From contig NZ_BLPG01000001.1 in the NCBI RefSeq assembly GCF_011764445.1, positions 9,105,316 to 9,169,315 on the forward strand: a stretch of DNA of 64,000 bases, in the 5' to 3' direction. The number at the start of each line of letters is the position of its first letter. Positions within the stretch are counted from its first letter, which is position 1. Below, piece after piece: positions 31,119 through 47,929 of this stretch. The notes beneath the pieces were generated by a model. It saw only the letters and a program-made list of their open reading frames with translations, had not been told where the DNA came from and made no database searches. A program made the position numbers and the translations under genes. The DNA comes from Phytohabitans rumicis. Lineage in GTDB: Bacteria > Actinomycetota > Actinomycetes > Mycobacteriales > Micromonosporaceae.

Positions 31119-31526
31119 GTGAAACGAGACGTCACCGTGATTGAGTTCCATCTCGACGGCCGCTCCGGCGTCGCTCCCTACATGCAGCTGATCCAGCAGG
31201 TGCGGCAGGCGCTGCGGCTGGGGCTGCTGGTCGAGGGGGACCGCCTGCCGACCGTCAAGGACGTGGTCGCCAAGGTGGCGATCAACCCGAACACGGTCTT
31301 CAAGGCGTATCGAGAGCTCGAGTACCAGGGATTGGTCTCCGCCCGGCCGGGAGTGGGCACGTTCGTGACCCGCACCCTGACCGATCAGTCGCTCGCCGCG
31401 CACGAGTCGCTGCGCGAGGAGCTGCGCACCTGGCTGGACAAGGCGCGCGCCGCCGGGCTGGACGACGAAAGCATCGACGCGCTCATCGCGACCACCGTCC
31501 GCACCCCCATCGAGGAGTCCACATGA
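31119..31526 (+). CDS. GntR-family regulator, YtrA subfamily
   Basis: 135 residues (GTG 31119; GTG 31137 is an alternative that leaves a longer leader). The winged HTH (APYMQLIQQVRQALRLGLLV, then LPTVKDVVAKVAINPNTVFK, then AYRELEYQGLVSARPGVGTF) is followed by only a short helical tail, diagnostic of the YtrA group. These regulators repress adjacent ABC transporters and respond to cell-envelope antibiotics. The stop overlaps the ATPase start (ATGA). Confidence 0.88.
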   Translation: MKRDVTVIEFHLDGRSGVAPYMQLIQQVRQALRLGLLVEGDRLPTVKDVVAKVAINPNTVFKAYRELEYQGLVSARPGVGTFVTRTLTDQSLAAHESLREELRTWLDKARAAGLDDESIDALIATTVRTPIEEST

Positions 31527-32410
31527 CCAAACCCGCGCTCAGGGCCGTGGGTCTTACCAAGCGTTACGGGCGGTATCCCGCACTGTCCGACTGCACCCTC
31601 GACATCCCGTCCGGCCGGGTCGTCGGGCTGGTCGGCCCGAACGGCGCGGGCAAGACGACGCTGCTGCAGCTGGCGGCCGGCATGTTGACCCCGACGGCGG
31701 GCTCGATCGAGGTCCTCGGCGGCCGACCGGCGTCCGGCGCGGCCCAGCTGGCCAAGGTCGGGTTCGTCGCGCAGGACACGCCGACGTACGCGGGCATGTC
31801 GATCGCCGATCACCTCAGGTTCGGCGCCTCCGCCAATCCACGGTGGGACCAGCCGGCGGCCGAGGAGCGGATCGCCCAGTTCGGCCTGGACCTGCGGCAG
31901 AAGGCCGGCCGGCTCTCAGGCGGCCAGCGCGCCCAGCTCGCGCTCACGCTGGCCATCGCGAAACGGCCGGAGCTGCTCATCCTCGACGAGCCGGTGGCCA
32001 GCCTGGACCCGATGGCCCGCCGGGAATTCCTCAAAGGACTGATGAGCTTCACGGCCGAGCACCACGCCAGCGTGATCCTCTCCTCCCACCTGGTGTCCGA
32101 CCTGGAACGCGTCTGCGACTACCTCATCGTGCTGGTCGCTTCCCGGGTACGGGTCGCCGGTGACGTCGACGACCTGCTGGAGGGCCACTTCCGGCTCACC
32201 GGCGCCCGGCGGGACGTCGACGACCTGCCCGACGGCGTGGAGGTCATCGAGGAGAGCCACGTCGAACGGCAGTCCACGCTCATCGTCCGCGCCGACGTTC
32301 CGCTCGACGGAACGCCGTTCACCGTCGAACAGCTCACCCTCGAAGACCTGGTGCTGGCGTACATGTCGCAGGCCACGTCGTCCCGGCCGGTATTGGAGCC
32401 CACCCGATGA
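31523..32410 (+). CDS. ABC transporter ATP-binding protein
   Basis: 295 residues. Walker A GLVGPNGAGKTTLLQLAAGM, Q-loop GFVAQDTPTY, signature LSGGQRAQLALTLA, Walker B LLILDEPVASLDP and H-loop SSHLVSDLERV are complete. The C-terminal 80 residues (DDLLEGHFRLTGARRDVDDL) are the regulatory extension found in YtrB/BcrA-like exporters. It forms a heteromeric exporter with the permease encoded next, with overlapping stop/start. Confidence 0.93.
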   Translation: MTKPALRAVGLTKRYGRYPALSDCTLDIPSGRVVGLVGPNGAGKTTLLQLAAGMLTPTAGSIEVLGGRPASGAAQLAKVGFVAQDTPTYAGMSIADHLRFGASANPRWDQPAAEERIAQFGLDLRQKAGRLSGGQRAQLALTLAIAKRPELLILDEPVASLDPMARREFLKGLMSFTAEHHASVILSSHLVSDLERVCDYLIVLVASRVRVAGDVDDLLEGHFRLTGARRDVDDLPDGVEVIEESHVERQSTLIVRADVPLDGTPFTVEQLTLEDLVLAYMSQATSSRPVLEPTR

Positions 32411-41010: not shown

Positions 41011-44000
41011 TCACGCAGGTCCGTCTTGCCGGGCCCGGGCCATGACTTCGTCGGTGGTGAGCGGAGCCCGCGGATGGTAAGTGAGGCATAGCGGCGCGCT
41101 CACCTTCTGCGGTGGCTCACCCTCCACCGCGACGTAGAACTCGCCCGAGGTGAGCCGGGCCAGATCCGGTACGTCTCCACCTTTCATCTTGGCCATGTCC
41201 CGGGCATGGTCGATCTGCACCGGCGCGTTCAGCAGCCCGAAGCATTGGGTCGTGGCGTTGCCCGATACGCGGTTGTGCAGTCCCTTCGGCGCCTGGGTGG
41301 CGAAGATCAGGCCGAGGCCGTACTTGCGGGCCTGGGAGGCGAGCGCCAGGGTGCTCTGGGTGCACACCGTCATCGCACCCGAGGGCGCCAGGGTCTGCGC
41401 CTCGTCCATCACGAACAGCCCGAGCAGCGGCCGGTGCGCGGCGGGGTGCTTCTTGATCCAGGCGAACAGGGCCATCTGGAGTTGGTTGACGAAGCTCTGC
41501 CGGGCCTCCTCGGCCGGTAGGCCGATCAGGCTGATCACCGAGACCCGGGCGCGCTTGCCCGGTGCCGGAGTCAGCAGAATGCCGGGGTCGACGGGGGTGC
41601 CGGTGCCGCCGAAGAGCGGGTCGTTGTCCATGGAGGCGGTGAGCGTCTGCGCCAGACCGGCGGCGATCTTGTCCGCGCCGTCCAGGCCGCTGACCCCGTC
41701 GGGGAGGTCGTCGAGCAGGTGGATGAGCCCGGGGACGTCGCGCCCACCCTGCCGCGCGTAGTGGTCCACCGCGCGGCGCAGCACCGCCAGGCCCAGGTGG
41801 ACCTTGTTGGTGCGGCCGACGAGCTTGGCGCGCGGCGCCAGGGCCGCCACGGCCGCCTCGACCGCCTCGCCGAACTCGTCCGGATCGTCGCGGACGCCGG
41901 CGAAGTCCGGGAGCGGCTGGAAGCTCAGCGGGCGGCCCGACTCGCGGCGCGGAGTCCAGATCACCACCTCGGTGTTGGCGAGGTACTCGGCCGCGCGCTC
42001 GGCGGCGCCGGTCCGCCACTGCGGCGGCCGTTCGGGCCATGGGTCGCCGAGCCGGGCCAGGTCGTTGTTGGGGTCCAGGACGATCGCGGACACACCCAGC
42101 AGCGCGCACTCCTCGATGACGTGGCGGATGAGCACCGTCTTTCCGGAACCCGACCCGGCGAAGATGGCCAGGTGCTTGCGCAACGCCTCCAACGGCATCC
42201 GCAGGGGTGCGTCGTCCTCCGGCCCGTACCCGATCACGAGCTCGTGGCCGGTGCCCGCGCCCGGCCCGGCGTCGCGCGCCGGCGCGACCGGCGGCGGGCC
42301 TGCCCGCGTCCAGTCGTCGGCGTCCGCCAGCGCCTCCTTGAACAGCGTCAGCTGCGCCGCCGGCCGGCGCTTGACCAGCCACGCCTGTAGCACCGTCGGG
42401 TGCTCGTCGCGCAGCCCGTGCAGGGCGGCGAGCACCCGCAGATCCGCGCCGTCGACGGCGAGGGTCTGGCCGCCGTCGTGGTGGAACTCCTTGACCGCTT
42501 GCTGGGTCTTGACCCCGGATGACCAGGGGCCGTTGCGGATCAGGAACAGCTTGCGCTTGGCGACCTCGGCGGTCAGCCCGGCGGCCATCCGCGCGCGGCG
42601 GATCCGGTTCAGCGCGGCCACCGCGTGGTGGGTGTCGCTGACCGCCCGGAAACACCAGTGCACCTGGTCTTCGGTGTTCTCGTCCAGGGTGCGGCGCAGC
42701 CGGGCGTGCAGGTCCGGCTTGTCGCTGGGCGGCGGGTCCAGCGTGAACGCCTCGGCGCCCTCCCCGCGTTCCAGGATCCACGCGGTCAGCCCCGCGGTGA
42801 GCAGGGCCGGAAACGTCACGTCCTCGGTGTCGCCTTCGAGCGGGGAGGTGATGTCGGCGTCCCGCTTGAGCTCCTCGAACCGCGCGTCGATCTGGGCCAG
42901 GATGTCCTCGGGGGCCTCCGGCGCCGGTGCCGGGCTGCCGGGCTCCTCGTCGTCGTCCGGCGCGCTGGCCAGGCTCGTCAGCTCGCGCACCTCGCCGGCC
43001 TTGAGGCAGGCCCGGACGTGCCGGTCGATCTCGATGAGCAGCCGGCGCGGCGTGTAGTTGCCGGCCTCCGCGAACGCGGACCCGCGCACCGGCCACGTCT
43101 TGTAGGCGGGGGTGAAGCCGATGTCGCCGTACCGGGCGCCGAACCGCCGCTCGACGATCTCCTGCGCGAGCCGGGCGTCCAGGATGCCCTTGAGCACCGG
43201 CGATCGGCGGAACCGGTCGGCCGCCGTGTTGGTCGCCCGGGTCTCGATGAGCGTCCAGGTCGTGGGCAGGCAAGCGACCACGGTCAGGGTGCGGCGCGTG
43301 CGTTCCCGTAGCCGCAGCAGCCCGCTCGCGACGTTCTCCAGGGCCAACGCCTGCCGCTGCTCGGCCCGCGTGTCCGCGTTGAGCGTCAGGTCGGCGCTCA
43401 GCGTGGACTGGGCGACCAGCGTGTCGATCTGGTCCACCGCGATCACCGACGGGCCGGTCAGCGCCAGCAGCAACGACAGGTCGCGGACGATGTCCTCCGC
43501 GGTGTGCGGCTTGCGGCGGATGCCCCAGTCCGTGCGCTCGCCGGGGATCGACTCCTCGTCCGAGATGAAGTAGTTGTCGGCGACGTCGCGGTGCTCGGAC
43601 CGGTCCGAGGCGCTCAGCGCCAGCGCCCGCGCGGTGTCCCGGCTCAGGTCCGCGACGTACGGGTCGTAGTCCTTCAGCCCGTCGACGAAGGCGTCCAGGG
43701 CCGGCCGGGTCAGCGCGGTCTCGCCCATCACCGCCCGGCGGGCCGCCCGGGGCGCGCCGATGCGCGACGACAGCCGGCGCAGCAGCAGCCGCAACTGGGT
43801 CTCCCGGCCCACCACCGGCCGGGCCAGGCTGTCGCGCATGTATGCCAGCACGCTGGGCCAGAACGTCTGCTCGTCCAGCAGGCTGACGAGGAAGAAGTAG
43901 CCGCCCTGCTCCTGTACGCGCTGCCGCAGCCAGCCGAGCAGGTGGGTCTTGCCCGAGCCGCGCCGGCCCAGCAGCGCCAGGCTGATCGGACTGGGACCGG

Positions 44001-44157
44001 GACTGGCCGTCGCGTCGGCGATGCCGGCCTGCAGTTCGTGTATGACGTCGGTGTGCAGGCCGTCGACGTGCAGCGGCGAGGGCCGCCAGACGTCGTCCGG
44101 CACCGGCGCCCAGGTGAGCCGCAGCGCGGCGAGCGCGGCGCGTTCGTCTTCGGTCAT
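41011..44157 (-). CDS. dual-ATPase protein: N-terminal AAA plus C-terminal HerA/FtsK-like translocase
   Basis: 1,048 residues, ATG at 44157. The first NTPase has Walker A GRRGSGKTHLLGWLRQRV (64-81) and Walker B VIAVDQIDTL (about 240). The second, of HerA/VirB4 type, has Walker A GSGSGKTVLIRHVIEE (about 665), Walker B LFVMDEAQTL (about 918) and sensor LIFATQAPKG. A mostly helical, acidic region lies between them. HerA-like hexamers pump DNA and in defence systems work with nucleases or SIR2-type effectors; here no nuclease is visible in the polypeptide or next to it. It overlaps by 4 bp the small gene upstream. The combination suggests a DNA-sensing or translocating conflict system. Confidence 0.82.
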   Translation of the reverse strand: MTEDERAALAALRLTWAPVPDDVWRPSPLHVDGLHTDVIHELQAGIADATASPGPSPISLALLGRRGSGKTHLLGWLRQRVQEQGGYFFLVSLLDEQTFWPSVLAYMRDSLARPVVGRETQLRLLLRRLSSRIGAPRAARRAVMGETALTRPALDAFVDGLKDYDPYVADLSRDTARALALSASDRSEHRDVADNYFISDEESIPGERTDWGIRRKPHTAEDIVRDLSLLLALTGPSVIAVDQIDTLVAQSTLSADLTLNADTRAEQRQALALENVASGLLRLRERTRRTLTVVACLPTTWTLIETRATNTAADRFRRSPVLKGILDARLAQEIVERRFGARYGDIGFTPAYKTWPVRGSAFAEAGNYTPRRLLIEIDRHVRACLKAGEVRELTSLASAPDDDEEPGSPAPAPEAPEDILAQIDARFEELKRDADITSPLEGDTEDVTFPALLTAGLTAWILERGEGAEAFTLDPPPSDKPDLHARLRRTLDENTEDQVHWCFRAVSDTHHAVAALNRIRRARMAAGLTAEVAKRKLFLIRNGPWSSGVKTQQAVKEFHHDGGQTLAVDGADLRVLAALHGLRDEHPTVLQAWLVKRRPAAQLTLFKEALADADDWTRAGPPPVAPARDAGPGAGTGHELVIGYGPEDDAPLRMPLEALRKHLAIFAGSGSGKTVLIRHVIEECALLGVSAIVLDPNNDLARLGDPWPERPPQWRTGAAERAAEYLANTEVVIWTPRRESGRPLSFQPLPDFAGVRDDPDEFGEAVEAAVAALAPRAKLVGRTNKVHLGLAVLRRAVDHYARQGGRDVPGLIHLLDDLPDGVSGLDGADKIAAGLAQTLTASMDNDPLFGGTGTPVDPGILLTPAPGKRARVSVISLIGLPAEEARQSFVNQLQMALFAWIKKHPAAHRPLLGLFVMDEAQTLAPSGAMTVCTQSTLALASQARKYGLGLIFATQAPKGLHNRVSGNATTQCFGLLNAPVQIDHARDMAKMKGGDVPDLARLTSGEFYVAVEGEPPQKVSAPLCLTYHPRAPLTTDEVMARARQDGPA

Positions 44158-44786
44158 CGCATGCCGATCGCCAGTACGTGCCGGTGCTCGCCGCCGATCT
44201 CCACTGCCGCCCGCCGATCCTCCACCTTCAGCGTCTTCTGGTTGGGTTCGGGCTCGAGGTCGACGTCCGGGGCGTCGAGCAGCCGCTCCAGCGCCTTGTC
44301 CAGCTCGGCCCTCGACACGTCGCCGAACAGGGGACGCAGCCGGGTCAGGCTCACCCACGCACCGGGTTCGGTGGCCAGGCCGGCGTAGGCGGACCGGATC
44401 CGCTCGCCCAGATCGCCCAGACCGCCGTGCACCGGCTCCGGCGCGCGAGGCCGGCCCAGGTGGTACGCGTGCAGGGCCGACAGCGCCGCCCACAGCTGCT
44501 GCTCCTTGCTGCCGTTCTTGCTCTTGCTCTTCTTGACGTCGGCCCCGTCCTCGGTGACCGTCAACGGGTCGCCCAGCAGCTTCTTGGCCGTCGGCGTCAA
44601 CTTGTGCCGGTAGGGCCGGACTCGCGTGTTCGACTCCAGGTAGCCCAGCCCGTTGAGGCGCATGGTGTCGTCCTTGTACAGCCGGACGCCGTGGGCGTTG
44701 AACAGCTCGGTGTTGTCGACCTCCCTGCCCTCGATCTTCAGCAGGATCAGGAACGCGTAGTCCGTGTGGGTCAGGTCGTCGGCCAT
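44154..44786 (-). CDS. small coupled partner of the AAA-HerA protein, unknown function
   Basis: 210 residues. The N-terminal 75 residues (DYAFLILLKIEGREVDNTEL, then LYKDDTMRLNGLGYLESN) look like a winged helix. A lysine/serine-rich linker (KKSKSKNGSK) leads to a helical C-terminal domain with SRAELDKALERLLDAPDVDL. I do not recognise the family. The ATGA overlap with the ATPase gene implies fixed stoichiometry and probably a physical complex, perhaps a DNA-recognition subunit. Confidence 0.7.
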   Translation of the reverse strand: MADDLTHTDYAFLILLKIEGREVDNTELFNAHGVRLYKDDTMRLNGLGYLESNTRVRPYRHKLTPTAKKLLGDPLTVTEDGADVKKSKSKNGSKEQQLWAALSALHAYHLGRPRAPEPVHGGLGDLGERIRSAYAGLATEPGAWVSLTRLRPLFGDVSRAELDKALERLLDAPDVDLEPEPNQKTLKVEDRRAAVEIGGEHRHVLAIGMR

Positions 44787-44803
44787 CTGTGGTCCTCCGG
44801 AGG

Positions 44804-47005
44804 TCATGGGCTGGGGGTGGGTGTGATCGGCGCGCCGTCGGCGGTCAGTCCGAAGGCGCGTAGGTTGGCCAGTTGCTCGGCCGGCACTGTCTCCTCGGCC
44901 GTGTACAGGGCGATGAGCCGGTCGGCCGCGCCGTACGTGCCGGCCTCCAACTCGGCGCGCAGTCCGGCCCGGTCGCGCAGCTCGAACAGCAGCGCGCACA
45001 GTCTCCGCGCGGCCTCCGGATCCCCGCCGGCGGCGGCCCGGAGGTCGGCCGCCTCCGACTCGGCGCCCGCCGTGCGGACACCCTCCTCGTGCACCTTCGA
45101 CAGGCGCAGCTCCGCGGCCGGGTCGCCCGCTCGCGCGCGGGCCTGCAGGAGGTCCACGTCGCCCCAGGCGACGTACAGGTCGGCGAGGGCCTCCGCCGCG
45201 TACAGGTGGCCACCGTCGGCGCGTTGCCGCAGCTCCCGCAGGCGGCCGCGGTCGACGAGCCGCTCGACCAGCTCCTCGGCGGCGAGCGCGTCGCCGGTCT
45301 TGGCCCGGGTCCGCAGGTCGTCGCAGACGCCCCCGTCGGCGAGGATCTCGGTGAGCCGCTCGCGCGCCGCCGGGTCGCCTGCGTGCGCGGCCGGCCGGAT
45401 CTCCTCCACCCGCTGCCAGAGCTCCTGGACGCGGGCGAGGCGGCGGCCGGCGGCGCGGTCCCGGGGTTCGACCTCCAGCCGCCGGCGCAACACCATGACC
45501 GCCTGCTGGAACCGGTCCTGACGGATCAGCAGGTGGGTGAGCTCGATCGCGGCGGCGCCGTCGCCGAATTCGTCGACGAGCCGTTCGAGGGCCTGTTCGG
45601 TGTAGGCGTACCGCAGCCTGGCGGCGGCGCTGTCGGCGATCCGGCGCAGGTCCGCCGAGCGGTCGAGCCCGGCGACGAGGGCCCGCCAGGCTTCGTGCGG
45701 GACGCACTCGACACGGCGGTGCCGTCGCAGGTGCTGGGCCAGGTAGTCGGCGATGGTGTAGCCGGCGAGGGTGCCGGGTCGCCCGCCGTCGACCGGCGAC
45801 AGCGCCGACACGTTGCCGTGCAGCGGCCGGGTGGCGTGCGGGAGTGCCTCGGCCAGCCACACGTCCGGCGGCGTCACCCGCAGGGCGTTCCGGAGGTACC
45901 CGAATGTGGCGCCGGCCAGCAGGCTCTCGCTCAGCGGCGACTGCACGCCGAGGCGGTGCGCGTCGGCGGCGGCGGTGATCATCGCCTTGGCGTACGGGTC
46001 GGGCGCCTGCTCCCAGCGGAGCACCAGGGCGGGACCACCGGCCAGCACCTGGGTCAGGCCCGCGTCGCGCGTCCGCAGCGCGATCCGGATCCGGGTATCC
46101 CGCTCCGCGAGGCCGTGGGCGCGTTCGAGCTCGTCCGGAGTGAGGTCCTCCTCGACGCTGATCACGATCGCGCTGCGCAGCAGGCGGCGGACGTCGTCGG
46201 CCTCGTCCGTGCCGGTGTTGGACTGCCGGGGGATGACCCGCGCGTCGTACTGGTCGGGCCACAGCGTGCCGACCACGATGTTCGGCTTCCGGGTCAACGC
46301 GCGGACGCACTCCAGCGACAGCGGTGGGCGGCTGCCCAGGTAGCGCTGCAGCTCGTCCAGCCAGAAGACGGTCTGGCTGGGCGGATGGTCCTTCAGCTCC
46401 AGCAACTCCTCGGTCTCCGCCGGCTGGACCAGGTGCCAGTTGGGCGCCACCTCGTGGATCGCCTCGTACAGCGAGCGGGTCTTGCCGGTCGACGAACCGC
46501 CGACCAGGATCACGAAGCAGCCGCGGGTCGGTCCCTCGTTCGTCAGCGCGGCCCGCAGCCGGAAGTCGAAGTCCCGCTCGATGTACGCCGGGAGTTCGTC
46601 GGTCGTGTCCGGCGTGATGATCGCGCTGTGGATGCCGAGGTCGCGCGGGGACGCCGTGTCGAAGCGGTTGACGCTGATCACGCGGTGCACGGTGGTGCCG
46701 TGCTCCGCGTCCTTGATGCGCGCCTGAGCGTGCAGCCACAGCCGCCGGACGCTCTCCGGTGCCTCGAAGAGGGTGAGCAGGCCCACCAGGAATTCCTGGC
46801 TGATCAGCGTCTTGCCGGTGAACGCGTTGCTCAGGGTGGAACTCTTGAGTGGCCGTAGGGGCTTCTCCCAGCCTTTGGTTTGCTGCTCGATCTCGCCGAG
46901 CGACATCCCCTTGTGGTGACAGAGGGCCCTGAGCGCCGCGCCAAGTTCGCCCCTCGTGCGCGCTCGGGATGGGTCGGAATCGGATTCGGGCGTCAGCGTG
47001 CTCAC
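44804..47005 (-). CDS. HTH-NTPase protein with C-terminal helical repeats
   Basis: 733 residues if the GTG at 47005 is used (an upstream ATG at 47122 is also open). Order: an HTH-like region (GELGAALRALCHHKGMSLGE, then IEQQTKGWEKPLRPLKSSTL), a P-loop NTPase with Walker A VGGSSTGKTRSLYEAI (about 170) and Walker B TVFWLDELQRYL (about 215). A long alpha-helical repeat region follows, in which the motif (R)A-x-G-D-x-x-A recurs (HAGDPAARERL, KTGDALAAEEL, RAGDPAAELRL), resembling SEL1/TPR-like solenoids. Such proteins belong to the broad STAND-like regulatory ATPases of actinomycetes. It heads the operon whose next genes are the small partner and the AAA-HerA protein. It may be the sensor/switch. 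Confidence 0.75.
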   Translation of the reverse strand: MSTLTPESDSDPSRARTRGELGAALRALCHHKGMSLGEIEQQTKGWEKPLRPLKSSTLSNAFTGKTLISQEFLVGLLTLFEAPESVRRLWLHAQARIKDAEHGTTVHRVISVNRFDTASPRDLGIHSAIITPDTTDELPAYIERDFDFRLRAALTNEGPTRGCFVILVGGSSTGKTRSLYEAIHEVAPNWHLVQPAETEELLELKDHPPSQTVFWLDELQRYLGSRPPLSLECVRALTRKPNIVVGTLWPDQYDARVIPRQSNTGTDEADDVRRLLRSAIVISVEEDLTPDELERAHGLAERDTRIRIALRTRDAGLTQVLAGGPALVLRWEQAPDPYAKAMITAAADAHRLGVQSPLSESLLAGATFGYLRNALRVTPPDVWLAEALPHATRPLHGNVSALSPVDGGRPGTLAGYTIADYLAQHLRRHRRVECVPHEAWRALVAGLDRSADLRRIADSAAARLRYAYTEQALERLVDEFGDGAAAIELTHLLIRQDRFQQAVMVLRRRLEVEPRDRAAGRRLARVQELWQRVEEIRPAAHAGDPAARERLTEILADGGVCDDLRTRAKTGDALAAEELVERLVDRGRLRELRQRADGGHLYAAEALADLYVAWGDVDLLQARARAGDPAAELRLSKVHEEGVRTAGAESEAADLRAAAGGDPEAARRLCALLFELRDRAGLRAELEAGTYGAADRLIALYTAEETVPAEQLANLRAFGLTADGAPITPTPSP

Positions 47006-47272
47006 CCCCAACCGCCGGCGTTTCGCGGGTGCGCCAACGGACTCGTCGGCCAGGCTACTGATCGACAATCCGGAACACCATCGGTCCTGTTTGGATGCCG
47101 ATCGTCCATTCGGGCCACGCATTCCGCGTTATTGGGTCCGTCCGTCGCATCCGGGAACCTCCGGGCCCGTCCGGCTCCGTGGCCGGACGGCCGCTTCGGC
47201 TGCTGCACTGTTCACCGTCAACCAAGGGAGCCCCGGCCGGGACCCGAAGCGATAAGACACCGAGGAGTCCCG
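47006..47272. promoter_or_regulatory. divergent intergenic region of the HerA island
   Basis: 267 bp without a convincing gene. It contains a strong hairpin CCGTCCGGC/GCCGGACGG at 47067-47090 (written within the 47167-47190 line: 47167-47175 and 47182-47190, 6-nt loop) and lower-GC stretches near 47040-47130 (GTTATTGGGT, TGTTTGGATG) that probably hold the divergent promoters. The cyclase-like gene has a GAGGAG ribosome site at 47261-47266. Confidence 0.4.
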
Positions 47273-47929
47273 ATGCGGCACATGCTCATGACCACCGCGC
47301 GAAAATGGCCCCGAATCGGCCGGCGGAACGGCGTCGCACGTTATCTCTGCCTTTCCGTGGACGTTCAGGGATATGGCCGCCACGACGACATCCGGCAGGC
47401 GATTGTCCAGCGCGACCTCATCGACCTGTTGGATCGTGCGGGGGAGCGGGCCGGCCTGGACCGCCGCCGCTGGATCCGGCAGCCGATCGGCGACGAGGAA
47501 CTGGCGCTGATCCCGGCCGACGAGCCCCTGGCCCGGGTCGTCGGCGACTTCTGCCTGGAGCTGTCGGCCGCGCTGTGGCGGTACAACCGGGTGTGCGAGC
47601 CGGCCGCCCGGCTGCGGCTGCGCCTGGCGTTCGACGACGGTCCGGTCGACCTGTCGCGCAACGGGTTCGCCGGGCAGGCGGTGATCGGGGTCAGCCGGCT
47701 GGTCAGCGCGCCGCCGCTGCGACAGGCACTCGACCTGGCCGGCGAGGCCGACCTCGCGGTCATCTTCGCGGACGGCGTGCACCGCGACTGGGTCCGCAGT
47801 GGACGGTCGTCGGTACGGCCCGGGTGGTGCCGCCGGGTCGTGGCCGTCGAGAAGGAGTACGCGGCGGACGCGTGGCTGTGGCTGCCGAGCGCCGACGTAC
47901 ACAGCTTGGCGCTTCAGGGCAGGCCCTAG
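47273..47929 (+). CDS. class III nucleotide-cyclase-like domain protein
   Basis: 218 residues, ATG with GAGGAG 6 nt upstream. VARYLCLSVDVQGYGRHDDI places an Asp at the first metal-binding position of class III cyclases, and QPIGDEELALIPADE has an acidic pair at the second. LRLRLAFDDGPVDLSRNGFA, then GQAVIGVSRLVSAPPLRQAL, then LAVIFADGVHRDWV continue the cyclase-fold pattern. It resembles the cyclase-like domains attached to STAND-type conflict proteins in actinomycetes rather than a housekeeping adenylate cyclase. Whether it is active cannot be judged. It is divergent from the HTH-NTPase operon and may supply or sense a nucleotide signal. Confidence 0.65.
   Translation: MRHMLMTTARKWPRIGRRNGVARYLCLSVDVQGYGRHDDIRQAIVQRDLIDLLDRAGERAGLDRRRWIRQPIGDEELALIPADEPLARVVGDFCLELSAALWRYNRVCEPAARLRLRLAFDDGPVDLSRNGFAGQAVIGVSRLVSAPPLRQALDLAGEADLAVIFADGVHRDWVRSGRSSVRPGWCRRVVAVEKEYAADAWLWLPSADVHSLALQGRP

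Follow-up and report, generated by a model that had tools for sequence, protein, structure and literature searches.

A candidate HerA/FtsK-type anti-invader module with a constant gene pair and exchanged partners in Phytohabitans rumicis

The window analyzed here is a 64,000-nucleotide stretch of the Phytohabitans rumicis genome (contig NZ_BLPG01000001.1, positions 9,105,316 to 9,169,315), in which three closely spaced minus-strand genes, C, B and A in order of transcription, encode a protein with a helix-turn-helix (HTH) and a P-loop NTPase, a small winged-helix-like protein, and a large protein that combines an AAA ATPase with a HerA/FtsK motor. C stops at 44804, 17 bp before B, and the B and A frames share an ATGA overlap at 44154-44157; the coordinates given for these three coupled genes in a first-pass annotation of the locus were right. 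A fourth gene, D, runs in the opposite direction.

Table 1. Genes and protein features of the C-B-A locus and gene D (window coordinates)
Feature	Position	Strand	Remarks
Gene A	41011..44157	-	1048 residues; AAA, middle alpha/beta domain, C-terminal HerA/FtsK motor
A residues 1-400, AAA_22-type NTPase	42958..44157	-	Pfam AAA_22 4.3e-8
A residues 412-620, conserved alpha/beta middle domain	42298..42924	-	Secondary structure of model; conservation in 44 A proteins
A residues 634-1048, HerA/FtsK motor	41011..42258	-	Walker A, DEAQ, sensor Gln intact
Gene B	44154..44786	-	210 residues; two winged-helix-like domains; translationally coupled to A
Gene C	44804..47005	-	HTH, STAND-like P-loop NTPase, 28-residue solenoid repeats
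C Walker A GGSSTGKT, residues 136-143 of 700-residue form	46478..46501	-	
C solenoid repeats, units at residues 507, 535, 563, 591, 625	45011..45388	-	
Gene D	47273..47929	+	Divergent from C; judged not part of the module

Protein A has two P-loop ATPase parts, the second HerA-like, as had been read at first pass: Walker A motifs lie at residues 67-71 (GSGKT) and 668-674 (GSGSGKT), DEAQ and ATQAPKG are also present, and the HerA part matches Pfam DUF87/HerA at 1.7e-9. The best PADLOC profile for A, mad8 (6.2e-20), covers the HerA part only, and a fold search of the whole protein returned a list filled by matches to the same part. That A might map to a housekeeping HerA family, a possibility the first-pass annotation had itself raised, was rejected, since the NCBIfam HerA equivalogs gave 28.8 bits against a cut-off of 800. 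AAA+ proteins normally carry a catalytic Glu at the Walker B position that is held by Gln in the AAA part of A (D242-Q243-x-D245); D242, Q243 and D245 are present in all 131 distinct A proteins. Because this position is always Gln, the AAA part is predicted to bind ATP but may hardly hydrolyze it. It reached 0.032 against Pfam ORC-CDC6-like, under the cut-off, and its best match among PDB sequences was no better than 0.015. In the model of the middle domain, the order of elements resembles that of a restriction endonuclease (REase) when read by eye. No nuclease active-site pattern was seen in the model or in the conservation across 44 A proteins, and neither a PDB sequence search nor a profile comparison with DUF559 gave a match; we tentatively regard the domain as an inactive REase.

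To place the window genes among their relatives, 140 A loci were examined. One (L145) was left aside since its A was called as a 177-residue piece, and merging of records with identical last 600 A residues reduced the remaining 139 to 131 distinct loci; strong A matches at a contig edge (G147), in a fragment (G228) and split over two contigs (G268) were left out. The order-level set comprises 59 strong A loci from 54 genomes, including a second copy in the window genome, and the named-genome set comprises the best 80 of 332 confirmed loci and therefore leans to close relatives. Partner labels such as TIR or AIPR denote BLAST clusters, of which one or two members each were scanned with Pfam or PADLOC. 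Genes were called with an in-house caller, which missed B at L190 and L065 (the same place), where tblastn finds it.

B lies directly before A at 128 of the 131 distinct loci, L190 being one of the three without a called B. The gap is -4 in 74 loci, -1 in 43 and -7 in one, and at 118 of the 128 the two frames thus overlap slightly; the association is more than chance. B itself has no match above cut-off in Pfam (best TruB-C_2, 0.0091) and none in PADLOC or NCBIfam; its fold search gave a list filled by matches to the first winged helix. B looks like a winged-helix DNA-binding protein, and the earlier suggestion that this small partner fills the effector role was rejected on that appearance. 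A B-like C-terminal domain also occurs in a 2310-residue open frame in genome G160 (contig C13, 85781-86026), on a different contig from the A locus fetched from that genome.

The genes that accompany B-A are exchanged from locus to locus. Among the 131 distinct loci, a DUF559 nuclease is found at 48 (7 with a WGR-beta-propeller gene and 2 with C), a pair of a TIR protein and a KGGVGR-ATPase/TIR/CATASP protein at 19, a divergent WD40 and Trypco1 set at 10, C without a nuclease at 8, DUF4365 with a partner (PADLOC candidate PDC-M02) at 6, and AbiU/AIPR at 4. We coined the name KGGVGR from the sequence; CATASP (1.5e-8) and AAA_31 exceed their cut-offs in this protein and TIR_2 (1.8e-4) does not. 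PADLOC calls AbiU, PDC-M02A/B and PDC-M28B, which are defense genes or candidates, among the partners. The front of the WD40 protein appears trypsin-like by eye, with PADLOC RT-Protease_XI reaching only 0.0016, and the WD40/Trypco1 genes are divergent to B-A, 275-321 bp away at five loci. The loci with this set (L101-L106, L141, L144, L147, L148, L154) are nearly confined to one A clade. The DUF4365 partner (L156:8239-9339 and relatives, cluster 60) has no Pfam match and corresponds to PADLOC candidate PDC-M02B. At L094 (4773-7675), two proteins with MutS_V-like ATPase domains precede B-A instead of a usual partner.

Several other neighbors were considered as effectors and set aside: a patatin-like gene (by eye) 3' of A at L123 and L129, which are two loci of one genus and whose scanned member has no PADLOC match; a DUF7159 gene upstream of B at L071, a family not known from defense; and genes upstream of B at L074, L079 and L083 (oxidoreductase-like and DUF72-like by eye), which lie 139-157 bp away and were taken as housekeeping.

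The description of C as an HTH, a P-loop NTPase and helical repeats also held: GGSSTGKT, LDELQ and five A-x-x-G-[DGH]-x-x-A units are present, the first four units exactly 28 residues apart, and G136, S138, S139, G141, K142 and T143 of the Walker A motif are invariant in nine C proteins. The HTH was assigned by eye. The gene caller starts C at 46906 (700 residues), and an alternative GTG at 47005 gives 733 residues; alignment with the C proteins of L098 and L128 suggests a start upstream of 46906, for which the GTG at 47005, which keeps the HTH whole, is a candidate and more likely than 46906. Profile matches are weak: nSTAND3 scored 0.11 with the window protein and matched five of nine C proteins (best 0.032), all under cut-off, and TPR_14 was weakly matched by five of nine. 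A search against PDB sequences was without a useful match. C heads 10 distinct loci, the window and nine others (L140 being a piece at a contig end); the two with a nuclease, L142 and L098, have the order C-DUF559-B-A, with the nuclease between C and B.

The history of these exchanges was approached with a quick maximum-likelihood tree (LG+G4) of the 131 A proteins. On this tree, the partner classes, seven in all, require 21 changes versus 73.2 in shuffles; DUF4365 accounts for 5 changes in 6 rows, AIPR for 2 in 4, and TIR, Trypco1 and C for 2 each. The window groups with Nonomuraea, Actinoplanes and Paractinoplanes in a six-row C clade without the nuclease (approximate likelihood-ratio support, SH-aLRT, 100), nested in a 21-row clade (100) with 10 DUF559 loci, 10 C loci and one partnerless locus. 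The nine C proteins linked to A-B form one clade (99) relative to five other C proteins, and a short contig (L205) bears apparent pieces of B, the nuclease and C in the same order as in C-nuclease-B-A. The simplest history, and the most likely one on these comparisons, is that C was recruited once to a nuclease-bearing operon and that the nuclease was then lost on the window branch. The A tree alone cannot tell gain from loss; it is the position of the window C clade inside the DUF559/C clade, together with the C-DUF559-B-A intermediates, that argues for loss.

Relatives are patchily distributed. A search of 298 genomes of the window's order gave A matches at E <= 0.001 in 145, many of them weak and to the HerA domain only, and B matches in 57; strong A loci were fetched from 54 of the 298, the window genome included, and some genomes have two copies. 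In a sample of the phylum, four of 296 genomes match A at 1e-30, namely the window genome and three of the same order. The best 80 of the 332 confirmed loci are all actinomycete (Micromonospora, Actinoplanes, Nonomuraea, Kribbella, Mycolicibacterium, Rhodococcus, Frankia and others). In Mycolicibacterium and its kin, partnerless B-A pairs at L164, L168, L171, L173, L194, L073 and L081 occupy seemingly one shared site with the same divergent neighbor clusters.

Three records of a plasmid collection carry A, two of them doubtful as plasmids. The Nonomuraea gerenzanensis record is 11.8 Mb long, and the Tsukamurella record has ribosomal-protein genes on both sides (rplN to rplE; rpsQ to rplB) of DUF559-B-A and a VapBC-type pair and is probably a mislabeled piece of chromosome. 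In this record (L238; Tsukamurella tyrosinosolvens NZ_LR134464.1, 174913-190125), DUF559-B-A shares the interval from rpsQ to rplN with the VapBC-type pair and a DEAD-box helicase; for an island, the interior of a ribosomal-protein cluster is an uncommon location. The other record is a 1.6-Mb alphaproteobacterial plasmid from Methylobacterium, typed mobilizable, with nuclease, B and A in the same order and about 31, 29 and 38% identical, respectively, to their best actinomycete relatives.

From sequence comparison, then, we draw a B-A pair, exchanged partners and a tree with a likely nuclease loss, and we consider it probable that C-B-A represents one version of an anti-invader module of the HerA/FtsK type in which a constant B-A core is combined with an exchangeable effector. 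The partners suggest that it may defend against phages or plasmids. The earlier designation of the locus as a conflict/defense island stands for C-B-A, a conflict-type module with C before B-A at nine other loci, but not for D as its fourth member. In such a module, B and the AAA part of A would recognize or load on invading DNA, and the HerA part would assemble as a ring and move DNA. Translocation could deliver the DNA to the coupled nuclease (DUF559, DUF4365), and in other versions the motor may switch on an effector of the cell-suicide type (TIR, AbiU/AIPR, protease-like). In the window, the STAND-like NTPase C would most likely be a sensor or gate; C would also act as the effector, or else the effector would be encoded elsewhere in the genome.

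A bolder proposal, which we offer tentatively while leaning slightly against it, is that B-A is an effector-agnostic chassis for sensing invader DNA. It would consist of one DNA motor, whose AAA clamp hydrolyzes ATP poorly, and an adaptor of the winged-helix type. Five or more unrelated effectors (DUF559, the DUF4365/PDC-M02 pair, the TIR pair, AbiU/AIPR, and WD40/Trypco1 with its protease-like front) would have been attached to this chassis in turn, a STAND switch having fully replaced the nuclease on the window branch. CBASS and Avs are modular immune systems in which a conserved sensing part is combined with an exchanged weapon. If the proposal is true, B-A would represent modular immunity of this kind, with a constant sensing motor and an exchanged weapon, but based on a DNA translocase. 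The series of nuclease, STAND plus nuclease, and STAND only would be a natural experiment on turning DNA translocation into immune output, and the units of two to four genes are small enough to test.

Several observations weigh against an anti-invader module with an exchangeable effector: (i) No recognized partner is present at 36 of the 131 loci, many of them in Mycolicibacterium, and B-A may therefore act alone; of these 36, 21 have no coupled gene before B and six reach the edge of the stretch. (ii) The window operon has no effector gene, as the first-pass annotation had stated; the statement does not extend to relatives, in which the slot is filled by DUF559, the TIR pair, the DUF4365 pair or AbiU/AIPR. 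(iii) The scanned TIR, WGR and Trypco1 proteins have no PADLOC match, and DUF559 scored only 0.011 and 0.023, in one of two proteins scanned. (iv) PADLOC, against which the first-pass annotation had proposed to check each protein, has no model for the core as such, matching the HerA part of A but not B. (v) Neither the Orc/CDC6 nor the inactive REase identity of A was secured by Pfam, PDB-sequence and profile searches. (vi) The C family is general, occurring in 25 of 200 genomes searched, where by coordinates only the window and G147 copies adjoin B-A. (vii) The A tree is quick and has long branches. (viii) None of the 27 matches from a pattern-based scan of viral contigs was a relative, on which ground a phage origin was also rejected.

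Among the alternatives, the one that survives best, although we doubt it, makes C the switch that acts as effector: C would be a STAND sensor sufficient in itself, with oligomers that kill the cell or arrest it, while B-A would be its DNA-sensing input and the nuclease would have become dispensable. C heads eight distinct nuclease-less loci, appears on the A tree to have been kept while the nuclease was lost, and has the HTH-NTPase-solenoid layout. Moreover, the operons of three C loci (L121, L124, L142) are adjoined by genes of a single cluster, its member at L121 being a protein with a PNP nucleosidase and a bacterial death-like domain (PADLOC PDC-M60C, PNP-bDLD3). However, no enzymatic effector domain was recognized in Pfam and NCBIfam scans of C proteins, the window has no such adjoining gene, and C was seemingly recruited once, with some descendants still carrying the nuclease.

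It is less likely still that the window locus is a degraded leftover whose remaining genes are being lost, or that it depends on the nuclease encoded beside a second B-A copy of the genome (L061, C1:1367000-1386000). The C-only form most likely arose by loss, and the second copy does include a DUF559 gene (C1:1377102-1378838). The copy lies 369 bp before a gene set with type I-G Cas3 (Cas3g, 1.9e-261). Against this reading, the DUF559 gene of the second copy is read in two frames (the caller gave 107 residues of it, and more is present), the window frames of A, B and C are open, their proteins are conserved and the motifs intact, and the nuclease-less clade spans all four lineages named above.

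It is very improbable that B-A serves as a motor for housekeeping or chromosome maintenance and has its neighbors by accident. HerA/FtsK motors also act in chromosome segregation and repair, and the partnerless loci, some at an apparent shared site in Mycolicibacterium, would suit such a role; the patchy spread within order and phylum, the two copies in some genomes, the plasmid copy and the repeated presence of defense proteins as partners all argue against it.

Gene D had been counted as a fourth member of the island. It overlaps the end of a LuxR-type regulator gene, has no Pfam, PADLOC or NCBIfam match, and is cyclase-like as read from its sequence; the family is present in 34 of 200 genomes searched. 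A CRP-type gene, resembling cyclic-nucleotide-binding proteins, stands beside D at eight of the nine D loci printed (L211, L212, L214, L215, L217, L218, L219 and L221, with L224 the exception; labels by eye), and at seven of the nine a gene of 413-458 residues (some cut) lies directly downstream, often overlapping, with a P-loop visible by eye in its printed part at L211 and L215. D relatives with these two genes would form a small signaling unit of their own, of which the window has D alone, with neither of these two genes beside it. The view that D joins C, B and A in a single island, its cyclase product serving as signal, is barely credible: D is divergent from C, 267 bp from its likely start at 47005, and D-like sequence occurs as domains of 864- and 728-residue proteins within 10 kb of two other B-A loci (L180, L172), but a separate D gene is missing from all 139 other loci examined and D relatives are mostly found beside CRP-like genes. 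D was thus rejected as a component, and with it the four-gene island; the constant core is B-A. Elsewhere in the window, ARAGORN calls a tRNA-Ser(cga) at 32246-32343 (-), which may be false; the call falls within an ABC-transporter-like gene (label by eye) on the plus strand, 31523-32410.

Among known systems, SIR2-HerA (Nezha), DUF4297-HerA and NurA-HerA differ in that A aligns with them from about residue 634, behind its AAA domain; SIR2, DUF4297 and NurA have no Pfam match among five window proteins and 18 representative neighbors. Unlike DndH of DndFGH, A has no DndH/DptH model among its NCBIfam matches, and its front is an AAA domain. MADS provides the best PADLOC profile for A, but the remaining MADS models matched none of A, B, C, D and the LuxR-type gene. 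The BREX-Related Capture systems (PMC12839542) extend the capture theme and likewise combine HerA/FtsK with AAA, STAND and multi-winged-HTH (multi-wHTH) proteins; of their seven components, PglZ, DUF6079 and DUF4007 are not among the Pfam matches of the window proteins. An eLife 2020 paper on conflict systems belongs to the same literature.

The best published fit, judged from the text of the source, is the HerA-FtsK capture system (Rakesh et al. 2024, PMC10853773), which is predicted to intercept invading DNA and comprises an Orc/CDC6 ATPase, an inactive and an active REase, HerA/FtsK and fast-evolving multi-wHTH proteins, with TIR and STAND fusions at related Orc/CDC6 loci. Shared features are the HerA/FtsK motor, an AAA ATPase and a protein that looks wHTH-like, and the earlier phrase "previously undescribed combination" is therefore too strong for the core, since the theme of these elements with a nuclease is published there. 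The fit is partial: the AAA, middle and HerA parts here form a single polypeptide; their Orc/CDC6 and inactive-REase assignments are not secured; the window operon lacks the active REase and is headed by a STAND-like protein; and elsewhere the nuclease is DUF559 or DUF4365 (48 and 6 of 131 loci), exchanged for TIR, AbiU/AIPR or WD40/Trypco1. This family may be among the examples of that paper, whose figure 7 and supplements lie outside the comparison. Beyond its figures and supplements, we found no description of effector exchange around B-A in the open-access literature. In our best reading, the module is a new, effector-swapping variant of the HerA-FtsK capture kind that occurs chiefly in actinomycetes, with a single instance on a plasmid of an alphaproteobacterium.

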